Positions 4,836 to 35,041 of a DNA stretch of 35,041 nt are shown here, piece after piece. This DNA comes from a virus. The notes beneath the pieces were generated by a model. The model was not told where the DNA came from. It saw only the letters and a program-made list of their open reading frames with translations, and did no database searches. Position numbers and translations under genes: made by a program. Numbering within the stretch: the first letter of the stretch is position 1; the number at the start of each line of letters is the position of its first letter. The stretch spans positions 1-35,041 of the IMG/VR virus record IMGVR_UViG_3300042465_001324; one strand, written 5' to 3'.

Positions 4836-5692
4836 GCCTGTCTTCCTAAAAGTGCTCTCATTCTTGCAAGAACCTCTGGGTTTGGTGGTGCAGTCTTTAG
4901 CCTGTCTTCATCAAGTTTGACAAGCGCAGGGTCACGGAATGAGCTTGAGGGTACTGTCTGGTGGACAATATCTGCCTTGTTGAACAGAGGTTTGACAATG
5001 TTCTGGTTTCTTACCCAATTGCGCCATGTGGCTTGCCAATCCAACTTCACACCTGCCGCACCTGCTTTTGCCACCCAATAGTCTTTGAACGAGTCAAACA
5101 CCTTTTGAGGGTTTAAGTCTGGTCGTTCTGTTTGGCAGAATTCTGTCCAAGAATCAGGCAACTCAAAATCTGTTGAAAGGCGTGAGCCTTTTGTTCTTTG
5201 TTTTGTTGGTGGTTCATCAATACTATGGTTATTGGTTATTGGTTCTTGGTTATTGGTTGCATCATGGGTGGATGATGTACCCATCATGGGTAGATGATGT
5301 GTCTTCAATGTAGAGATGTATTCATTATGAGTGCCATCGCTAAACCTTTGAATATAAACATCTTTTTCTGCAAACTCTTTTATCTTTGGATTATCTCGAC
5401 AGAATGCACCCCATGCTGAAACAGCCTGATGTTCACGAAATGTCTTGATTTGAGAGTCTGCCCTTGGGTTAACAAAGCCCTTATCAGTGGAAACAAAGAA
5501 CTCATTGAGGACTGTTAAAACCTCTTGTTCATGCTCTCTCATGCCAATCTGCCTAGCAATATCTCTTTGAAGAATTGGATATTCGTGCAAATAGTAATGG
5601 TCAAGCAACCGCCTGAAAGCCAAGTCTTCTATAAGACTCAAATGATGTGTGTGTGACTTGTAGTCACCAATATGGAATTGGTAAAAGTGCAT
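4832..5692 (-). CDS. DUF1376-type phage replication protein
   Basis: About 286 residues from the ATG at 5692. The N-terminus MHFYQFHIGDYKSHTHHLS and the following FRRLLDHYYLHE are characteristic of the DUF1376 (YdaU-like) domain found in phage replication initiators. The middle is a poor-complexity Thr/Asn/His linker (about residues 135-165). The C-terminal half, with FELPDSWTEFCQ and WQATWRNWVRNQ, is the helical module seen in phage replication proteins that recruit host helicase. The longer ATG at 5776 lacks a ribosome site and adds an atypical basic leader. With no polymerase or helicase in the window, this is the likeliest origin-recognition or helicase-loading protein. Confidence 0.75.
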   Translation of the reverse strand: MHFYQFHIGDYKSHTHHLSLIEDLAFRRLLDHYYLHEYPILQRDIARQIGMREHEQEVLTVLNEFFVSTDKGFVNPRADSQIKTFREHQAVSAWGAFCRDNPKIKEFAEKDVYIQRFSDGTHNEYISTLKTHHLPMMGTSSTHDATNNQEPITNNHSIDEPPTKQRTKGSRLSTDFELPDSWTEFCQTERPDLNPQKVFDSFKDYWVAKAGAAGVKLDWQATWRNWVRNQNIVKPLFNKADIVHQTVPSSSFRDPALVKLDEDRLKTAPPNPEVLARMRALLGRQA

Positions 5693-33646: not shown

Positions 33647-34079
33647 CTTTGCTTTCTATATCTTCGGCATCAATCGTAGGGTTTTCCCCAATAGTGACAC
33701 CACCTATGCCTGAGATGGTGATGTTGACAGCGGAACGCTGTTTTCCTTCTTTTTCAAATAGTGAAACGGGAAGCATTCTGTCCATACAGAGTTTGAGTGC
33801 CGCCATCTGTGCAGGGTGTTCATCATTCATTGCAATCTCGACTGCTTTGTAGACGACATTAGAACCAGCACTGTTTATCAGGAGGTCTTTGAGTTCTTTG
33901 ATTTTCTGTTGTTCAGTCTTGGGTAGTATGAGAGCAGTGGGGTTGTCTGCATACTTGGATAAGGTCATCTTCCCAGAACCTTTGGGTCTGCCCTTGGTTT
34001 TCTTCAAGCTATCAGGGAGTGCATCTACTACATTCATCTTTTGTCCAGTTAGGGAAGAAGTTTTGTTGGTGGCTTCCAT
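33639..34079 (-). CDS. Terminase small subunit-like protein
   Basis: 146 residues. A basic, flexible N-terminus (KKTKGRPKGSGKMTL) with an AT-hook-like GRPKG is followed by a helical core (LLINSAGSNVVYKAVEIAMN and PAQMAALKLCMDRMLP) typical of phage small terminase or DNA-binding packaging proteins. The tail is a short beta strand, VNITISGIGGV, and an acidic end. It overlaps the large subunit, and is the first gene of the late leftward cluster. Confidence 0.78.
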   Translation of the reverse strand: MEATNKTSSLTGQKMNVVDALPDSLKKTKGRPKGSGKMTLSKYADNPTALILPKTEQQKIKELKDLLINSAGSNVVYKAVEIAMNDEHPAQMAALKLCMDRMLPVSLFEKEGKQRSAVNITISGIGGVTIGENPTIDAEDIESKDV

Positions 34080-34149
34080 AAAGCAGGATTGGGTTCAATT
34101 CAACAACAAACAAAATCCCACGGAGCTAAACCGTTTCCACCAACACGGC

Positions 34150-34195
34150 TGAAGACTGCGTTGGACTCACCAGCTTTCAAAGTGAACAGTCTTCA
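34150..34195. other. Inverted repeat upstream of the terminase genes
   Basis: Perfect 9-bp arms TGAAGACTG (34150-34158) and CAGTCTTCA (34187-34195) with a 28-bp centre, 70 bp upstream of the small terminase start. Position fits a packaging (cos/pac) recognition site or an operator of the late operon. The remaining 34080-34219 has no supported gene. Confidence 0.45.
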
Positions 34196-34219
34196 TGCGT
34201 CTTGGAAGTTAGTACACAC

Positions 34220-34248
34220 TTTACACGAGAATCAGATTCTTGTATAGT
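34220..34248 (+). promoter_or_regulatory. Strong sigma70-like promoter with palindromic spacer
   Basis: TTTACA (34220-34225) and TATAGT (34243-34248) are exactly 17 bp apart; each matches consensus at 5 of 6. A perfect 13-bp palindrome AGAATCAGATTCT (34228-34240) fills the spacer and looks like an operator. GTTAGTACACAC (34208-34219) abuts the -35 and resembles the dyad repeats at 354-466. Confidence 0.75.
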
Positions 34249-34254
34249 GGAGGT

Positions 34255-34349
34255 AAGTTTGATTGCGCCAAACTATGAGCCTTTTAGAAGTGGTACAGCC
34301 TCCGTGCATTCGGGGGGCGCAACTGTGCCACCCCTAAAGGGCTTTTTTT
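34255..34349 (+). ncRNA. Pseudoknotted small RNA / leader with intrinsic terminator
   Basis: Hairpin 1 is AGTTTG/CAAACT (34256-34261 with 34269-34274), loop ATTGCGC. Hairpin 2 has three segments: 34278-34287 with 34334-34343 (10 bp), 34290-34298 with 34323-34331 (9 bp), and 34299-34304 with 34311-34316 (6 bp), with G-T pairs counted. The only unpaired 3' strand inside it, GCGCAA (34317-34322), is exactly complementary to TTGCGC of the hairpin-1 loop. Seven T follow, so transcripts from the promoter at 34220 should end here. The terminator arm contains AAAGGG, the only evident ribosome site for the HNH gene. Small RNA or riboregulator; no class recognised. Confidence 0.7.
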
Positions 34350-34805
34350 ATGGCAATTTATAGCAAGACAGGAATGACAGCAGTCAAGAAACAGCGTAAG
34401 GCTAGAGCCGCCAAAGCTAAGAAAACCTTGGACAAACTAGCCGAATCCAGTCCAGTCATTCAGGCGTTAATCAAGAAAAAGGCTTCTCAAATAGCTTGGA
34501 CTATGCAAAAGAAGTCTCCCAAGAAGAAGGTTGAGCTCCTGCCACCACCTGTTTATTTCTTTGGGATGGGTAAAGACTTCTATAAGACTAGGGAATGGCG
34601 GGATGTCAGATACAAGGCTTTGGTTAAGTTTGGCAAGAAGTGTCAGGCTTGTGGGGAAACCAGTGGATTTATTCATGTTGACCACATTCTTCCAAGATCA
34701 AAGCATCCAAAACTAGAACTTGATATTGAGAACTTGCAAGTATTGTGTGAGGCGTGTAACATTGGTAAATCCAACACGGATACAACTGATTGGCGTTACA
34801 AGTAA
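34350..34805 (+). CDS. HNH endonuclease
   Basis: 151 residues. A long basic N-terminal region (to about residue 62) precedes the HNH fold: CQACG (98-102) and CEACN (133-137) make the zinc pair, HVDHILPRS (109-117) carries the catalytic His/Asp, and ENLQVLCEACN the third motif Asn. HNH proteins next to terminase genes are common and can be required for packaging cleavage; a free-standing homing enzyme is the alternative. Its ATG follows the terminator T-run directly. It is transcribed opposite to terminase and ends 7 bp before the terminal repeat. Confidence 0.88.
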   Translation: MAIYSKTGMTAVKKQRKARAAKAKKTLDKLAESSPVIQALIKKKASQIAWTMQKKSPKKKVELLPPPVYFFGMGKDFYKTREWRDVRYKALVKFGKKCQACGETSGFIHVDHILPRSKHPKLELDIENLQVLCEACNIGKSNTDTTDWRYK

Positions 34806-34812
34806 AGGGATG

Positions 34813-35031
34813 TCGGGTGTGGCAGTCGCACCCTCAAAGGCATGAGATATACGGTTGCCCAACATAACCCGACAGGGAAGTAAGGGCGGTGGCTATAAAG
34901 AGGTACGCACTGGAAACAGTAATACGACCTGATGCCCCACAGAGATTAACTTAACTCTGTACGCTATACGACACCCACCCTAGTCTAGGGACTCTCAAGA
35001 CCATGAGATGTACTACGACTGCCTTGCTACG
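34813..35031. repeat. Terminal direct repeat, right copy
   Basis: Exact copy of 1-219. It starts 8 bases after the stop codon of the HNH gene. In this copy the two preceding bases (34811-34812) lengthen an inverted pair, TGTCGGGT with ACCCGACA, to 8 bp. That shows the natural context of the repeat's left edge. Confidence 0.95.
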
Positions 35032-35041
35032 TCTGTACTAT

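Follow-up and report, generated by a model that had tools for sequence, protein, structure and literature searches.

Few phage small RNAs have been defined by covariation. The c4 antisense RNA of phages P1 and P7 (Rfam RF01695) is a small RNA which lies directly upstream of a gene and contains short complementary segments, and the pRNA of phi29 is a phage RNA of ~100-170 nt which uses loop-loop kissing. A structured RNA adjoining an HNH protein gene is found in the HEARO/OMEGA RNA of IscB. Pseudoknots which overlap terminators occur in the crcB and pfl riboswitches (PMC2864571), and ToxIN loci consist, in order, of a promoter, a pseudoknotted RNA, a Rho-independent terminator and a protein gene which is expressed by read-through (PMC5086642).

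The DNA analysed here (the window) is the whole of IMG/VR virus record IMGVR_UViG_3300042465_001324, 35,041 nucleotides in length, and contains a predicted RNA, designated R1, between the terminase genes and an HNH endonuclease gene. R1 resembles the type III toxin-antitoxin loci (ToxIN, CptIN and TenpIN) in having one promoter, a pseudoknotted RNA and a Rho-independent terminator between RNA and gene, but it is a single RNA without repeats (no tandem array of short RNA repeats was found in 34000-34500), its terminator is built into the pseudoknot fold, and the RNA is not matched to the protein behind it, which is an HNH protein (PF01844) or a 74-aa protein without a confident family rather than a ToxN/AbiQ-like RNase. 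Like c4 RNA, R1 is a small RNA encoded by a phage, adjoins a gene on its upstream side and contains short complementary segments; its complementarity, however, lies within R1 itself and it ends at its own terminator. Unlike phi29 pRNA, it is a single RNA with an intrinsic terminator and seems to be dispensable to a closely similar terminase. The adjoining HNH protein is small (151 aa, HNH only, with no RuvC match), R1 is short, and it is also located beside non-HNH genes, all of which differ from HEARO/OMEGA. The pseudoknot is close to a transcription terminator, as in crcB and pfl, but the terminator of R1 lies within the sole stable fold, no alternative fold was found and the downstream genes are unrelated to one another.

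The window, its homologues and the Vibrio loci described below were searched against Rfam 15 at gathering and relaxed thresholds, and no match to R1 was obtained, whether to c4, pRNA, HEARO or any other class; the output contained only unrelated miRNA, snoRNA, lncRNA and leader models at chance level. This bears out the first-pass annotation (made from the window sequence alone), which could not place the RNA in a known class. No description of such an RNA was found in the literature, within an incomplete coverage of subscription papers and supplements.

Promoter, fold and covariation of R1

A sigma-70-type promoter is located at 34220-34248 on the plus strand, with the -35 hexamer TTTACA (34220-34225) and the -10 hexamer TATAGT (34243-34248) separated by a 17-nt spacer. 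Ten of the 12 hexamer bases match the consensus, in keeping with the strong, near-consensus promoter proposed in the first-pass annotation. The distance from the end of the -10 hexamer to the first base of the 5' hairpin (P1) was 6, 7 or 8 nt in all 56 distinct upstream regions (the spacer was 17 nt in 48 of these), and this fixed distance predicts an R1 5' end flush with P1. The predicted transcript of ~95 nt, identified by covariation and with its start placed from the promoter, runs from 34255 to 34349 on the plus strand. G-T pairs fill 144 cells of the R1 alignments compared to 2 cells for A-C, an asymmetry which indicates that the functional RNA is read from the plus strand. An ATG frame of 20 codons within R1 was discarded, as it is not conserved.

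P1 (AGTTTG/CAAACT; 34256-34261 and 34269-34274) closes the loop ATTGCGC, and 4 of its 5 modelled pairs show two-sided changes among homologues. It is followed by a terminator hairpin (34277-34344, two-sided changes in 13 of 25 pairs), the arm of which is made up of P2 (34277-34287/34334-34344), P3 (34290-34298/34323-34331) and P4 (34299-34303/34312-34316), and by a U-tract of seven T (34343-34349) which ends 0 nt ahead of an ATG. A T-tract was present in all 37 aligned R1 RNAs. The sequence GCGCAA (34317-34322), bulged from the 3' arm, is the sole long unpaired strand of the terminator arm and is the full complement of TTGCGC in the P1 loop (34263-34268). Hairpin loop, three-segment stem, unpaired strand, T-run and start codon are all as first described, and the proposed intrinsic terminator is supported by both the fold and the U-tract. 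The minimum free energy of the R1 fold was -43.0 kcal/mol (z -4.55), and none of 200 shuffles was equally stable.

The complementarity between loop and bulge had been considered hard to explain by chance. A complementary run of at least 6 nt to the bulge arose in 0.35% of shuffles of the 5' region, so that in a single sequence the match is only moderately improbable; relatives were therefore sought, and it is the comparison that settles the matter. Homologues were obtained with an HNH protein search (46 viral loci), with TerL (80) and with a validated DNA pattern (81 RNA-bearing contigs). In an alignment of 37 distinct R1 RNAs which was built without structure, 99.4% of cells were paired, pseudoknot included, and two-sided changes were observed in 22 of 36 pairs; the structure applied came from the window sequence and was somewhat favoured in one control, the two-sided changes being independent of that. 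No pairing measure of this alignment was reached by any of 500 shuffles, and pairing fell to 40-51% when the partner was slid by 1-3 columns. A second alignment, fitted to a covariance model, leans to the model structure, and the first yields the same result.

In the enlarged set of 76 RNAs, all 456 cells of the pseudoknot were Watson-Crick pairs; five of its six pairs covary and the sixth is invariant. Eight alleles were identified (TTGCGC, TCGCAC, TCGCGT, TCTAGC, TCGCGC, TCGTGC, TCGTGT and TCTCGC), each with its exact complement, and loss of complementarity without compensation was seen in none of the 76 RNAs. The claim of pairing beyond chance thus holds by comparison, although the single case gave it moderate weight. 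Invariant bases cluster at the junction of P3, P4 and the pseudoknot, which would be the likeliest contact site of R1. Compared across homologues, R1 is a real phage gene for a predicted knotted RNA of ~95 nt, with conserved structure between its own promoter and its intrinsic terminator; the small RNA proposed at the outset is supported, as a prediction, by covariation, plus-strand asymmetry and promoter geometry.

Genes and noncoding elements behind the promoter

The HNH endonuclease gene (34350-34805, plus strand, 151 aa; Pfam PF01844, E 9e-11) starts at the end of the U-tract. In relatives it is replaced by an ORF encoding an unrelated basic protein of 74 aa, and the ATG of one or the other stands at the U-tract end in every R1 locus examined. 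The earlier proposal that the downstream gene is reachable only by read-through is supported. Comparison of these loci indicates that the gene is exchangeable. All six common pseudoknot alleles occur with both the HNH and the 74-aa ORF, and near-identical R1 RNAs with the same allele were found in L023 (HNH) and L109 (74 aa). HNH was rejected as a cognate partner of R1 because alleles are shared between the gene types. Likewise, a riboregulator specific for HNH, as first envisaged, does not agree with the presence of the same alleles ahead of an unrelated 74-aa gene, nor with the similarly built RNAs of Vibrio phages and of a second locus, which are followed by other noncoding RNA and not by an ORF. 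The AAAGGG ribosome site thought to be hidden in the terminator is not universal, as L040 has TTGAAGAC.

Directly after the HNH stop codon is a conserved, structured noncoding element, designated Y (34806-35041, continuing at window 1 to ~230; plus strand assumed). About 100 of its bases do not vary among 17 phages, 11 of its predicted pairs show two-sided changes, and it has no match in Rfam. The ends of the window repeat each other (1-230 and 34812-35041, 98.8% over the matched stretch; terminal redundancy), which makes a circular or permuted genome of ~34.8 kb probable. Behind the 74-aa ORF there is a conserved and structured element Z (L079, L098, L109 and L182), which has a promoter-like sequence of its own, TTGAYN-17-TAnnnT, spanning the stop codon of this ORF in all 27 loci. 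At window ~330-560, within the long noncoding region, repeats like AGTTAGCACTAACTAAC and Fur-box-like AATGAGAATGATAATGAG stretches were noted, and similar words occur upstream of the R1 promoter.

In R1-less relatives with a near-identical terminase, the same promoter is directly followed by a long, conserved noncoding element X (complement of 3139-3408 in L070, with relatives in L055, L060 and L066), for which there was no Rfam match. Among TerL contigs showing the promoter region, X was present in 33 and R1 in 14, while none had both. As the promoter is shared by R1 and X loci, it is considered part of a locus whose noncoding RNAs are exchangeable. A search of eight R1-less relatives, six of which are 33-36 kb in length, gave no HNH match; this search had no positive control. 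From these comparisons HNH would be one passenger, and this terminase seems to require neither HNH nor R1. The single close match to TerL in the genome collection (84% identical) was on a betaproteobacterial MAG contig, which is a weak hint at the host.

Vibrio phages and a second locus with the same architecture

In Vibrio phages which carry HNH relatives, a noncoding stretch of ~450-500 nt precedes the gene, and a shared promoter element was found in 312 Vibrio phage records. The Vibrio cases were first spotted by eye and then with a loop-bulge descriptor. In 11 fetched loci, two hairpins lie behind this promoter: the loop of the first, at the 5' end, forms 7-8 base pairs with a bulge of the second, which is T-tailed and has no other long bulge in its 3' arm. 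From the shared promoter to the T-tract the predicted RNA would measure roughly 110-125 nt; cultured phages of this type include Vibrio phages 1.276.O and 2.095.A. The sequence of these RNAs is unrelated to that of R1, and they have six pseudoknot alleles of their own, GTCGTGT/ACACGAC and GTCGAGT/ACTCGAC, for example, occurring in otherwise similar RNAs. The locus sits among other structural or accessory genes. No substantial ORF starts at the U-tract; the RNA is followed by alternative larger noncoding stretches and then by variable genes, which encode HNH, methylases, a T5orf172 protein or a calcineurin-like protein.

At least four alternative larger noncoding elements were noted (L216 1920-2250, L222 1880-2180, L228 1690-2005 and L231 1670-1990), and one Vibrio element of this type is also found directly after a tRNA-Arg gene in L233. 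The promoter element is present without the RNA in L238 and L239. In L230, L235 and L236 the shared promoter is followed, in the R1 position, by a different fold without a T-tract, in which a long hairpin contains TCCCGTCAAG, the complement of a 5' CTTGACGGGA (the corresponding pair in L236 is CTTGGCGGGA/TCCCGCCAAG).

A third family, R1b, occupies a second locus in the phage group of the window and has its own promoter and the pairing GTGGAAA/TTTCCAC, with one mismatch in this helix in L240. R1b is intergenic, again with no substantial ORF starting at the U-tract; directly behind it comes W, a noncoding element which covaries, and then an ORF. R1b and W loci were identified in L189 (complement of ~5091-5330), L203 (1440-1760), L240, L241 and L242. 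In the window itself, the complement of ~5824-5690 contains a promoter region like that of the R1b locus of relatives, followed by a different noncoding sequence.

When all fetched DNA was scanned with the descriptor, 67 of 1259 T-runs matched compared to 1 of 1259 when shuffled, and every real match belonged to the R1, Vibrio or R1b family. The R1 covariance model found nothing in named phages that carry HNH relatives. Structured-looking noncoding DNA (~500-640 nt) was observed directly upstream of HNH relatives in Xanthomonas phage Kintu (L219 1740-1930), where it may hold a related pseudoknot, and in Sulfitobacter phage phiGT1 (L220 1694-2336).

Function of R1

The available comparisons indicate that R1 is probably an autonomous phage small-RNA gene, the terminator of which would also throttle read-through into an exchangeable downstream cassette. 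A strong host-type promoter would start transcription flush with P1, the loop of P1 would kiss the 6-nt bulge on the 3' side of the long terminator hairpin, and most transcripts would end as a compact, pseudoknotted RNA, ~95 nt in length and structured at both ends, leaving a read-through minority to express the exchangeable gene which starts at the U-tract end (HNH here). The constant part of the locus would be the RNA and not the gene. R1 would act in trans as a structured RNA, by protein binding or RNA-RNA kissing; we infer this from the conservation of a knot which termination does not need, the indifference of the RNA to the gene behind it and the loci without an ORF at the U-tract. The abundance of R1 and the efficiency of termination are likewise inferred. 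Because read-through must feed the gene behind, the terminator would, as a second effect, set a low level for that gene and with it the RNA:gene ratio. A cis effect on the downstream gene is therefore likely, although not necessarily the purpose of the terminator.

It is possible, if somewhat doubtful, that R1 is mainly a cis-acting attenuator or insulator, with the short RNA as a by-product and a pseudoknot which tunes termination. In the window's lineage R1 is always accompanied by an ORF starting at the U-tract, which hints at a cis role; R1 is absent where X directly follows the promoter, and something conserved follows in all three families. The linker between P1 and P2 is short (0-5 nt), and on a geometric estimate fraying at the base of P2 may be needed for the P1/pseudoknot helix to reach the bulge, so that the pseudoknot may form at the expense of the last pairs of the terminator. 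However, freeing the 3' strand of P2 was calculated to cost 9-19 kcal/mol (59 RNAs; pseudoknot energy left out), and neither an antiterminator nor any alternative fold was seen, which tells against the earlier suggestion that the terminator is opened. With no cheap alternative to the terminator fold, and hence no pair of mutually exclusive folds of which one opens it, the reading of R1 as a riboswitch is not supported. A leader role also has to accommodate unrelated genes served by the same RNA, a pseudoknot kept throughout though termination does not require it, and the Vibrio and R1b loci in which no substantial ORF starts at the U-tract.

A fast-changing specificity element is unlikely: here kissing of loop and bulge in trans would decide whether R1 copies of different phages recognise each other or not, and the equally unlikely use of this would be immunity or competition between phages, in the manner of allele-specific antisense RNAs. 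Its attraction lies in R1 RNAs which are one position apart outside the pseudoknot and yet differ by 2-3 whole pairs within it, and in the minimum spanning tree, on which the rate of change in the pseudoknot matches that of the unpaired apical loop even though every change needs a partner. The tree gave no excess over the free loop, however, and the rate among close pairs is inflated by non-independence; the strong diversifying selection which close pairs had suggested was not upheld by the tree estimate. A search for an external target site covarying with the pseudoknot returned no consistent partner, with weak and inconsistent enrichment. A knot which drifts as fast as a free loop and is always paired may reflect either drift or selection for difference. 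The antisense RNA suggested at first is not favoured, given that the loop which varies is already paired within R1 and the apical loop shows no conservation.

A type III toxin-antitoxin-like module, in which the pseudoknotted RNA would restrain the downstream nuclease, is very unlikely: its elements stand in the ToxIN order, but the tandem repeats and the ToxN-like RNase are absent, the same RNA also precedes the unrelated 74-aa protein, and the fold of R1 differs from the H-type monomer described for ToxI. A packaging RNA or packaging-related site, suggested by the position of R1 between the terminase genes and HNH and by the part which HNH proteins near the terminase take in packaging in some phages, is the least probable reading because relatives with 87-96% identical TerL lack R1, to which may be added the R1-less relatives without an HNH match, the placement of the Vibrio locus among other structural or accessory genes and the lack of a match to pRNA in Rfam.

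The autonomous small-RNA gene represented by R1 is tentatively assigned to a widespread and undescribed kind of phage RNA gene, for which we propose the name kissing-terminator RNA, defined as a promoter-proximal 5' hairpin with its loop paired to a bulge in the 3' arm of its own terminator. We know of no phage RNA with a pseudoknot between the loop of a 5' hairpin and a bulge of the terminator arm. In this proposal, which we put forward with some reserve, such genes, unrelated in sequence, would have originated or spread on several occasions. Each would normally work together with a second RNA behind it, which is larger, structured and exchangeable (Y, Z, W or one of the Vibrio sets), the two RNAs forming an accessory cassette of the phage. 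The presence of the layout in two phage lineages and in three families unrelated in sequence points to selection on the layout itself, and its occurrence in cultured Vibrio phages means that a general role for a phage-encoded structured RNA may be tested in the laboratory.
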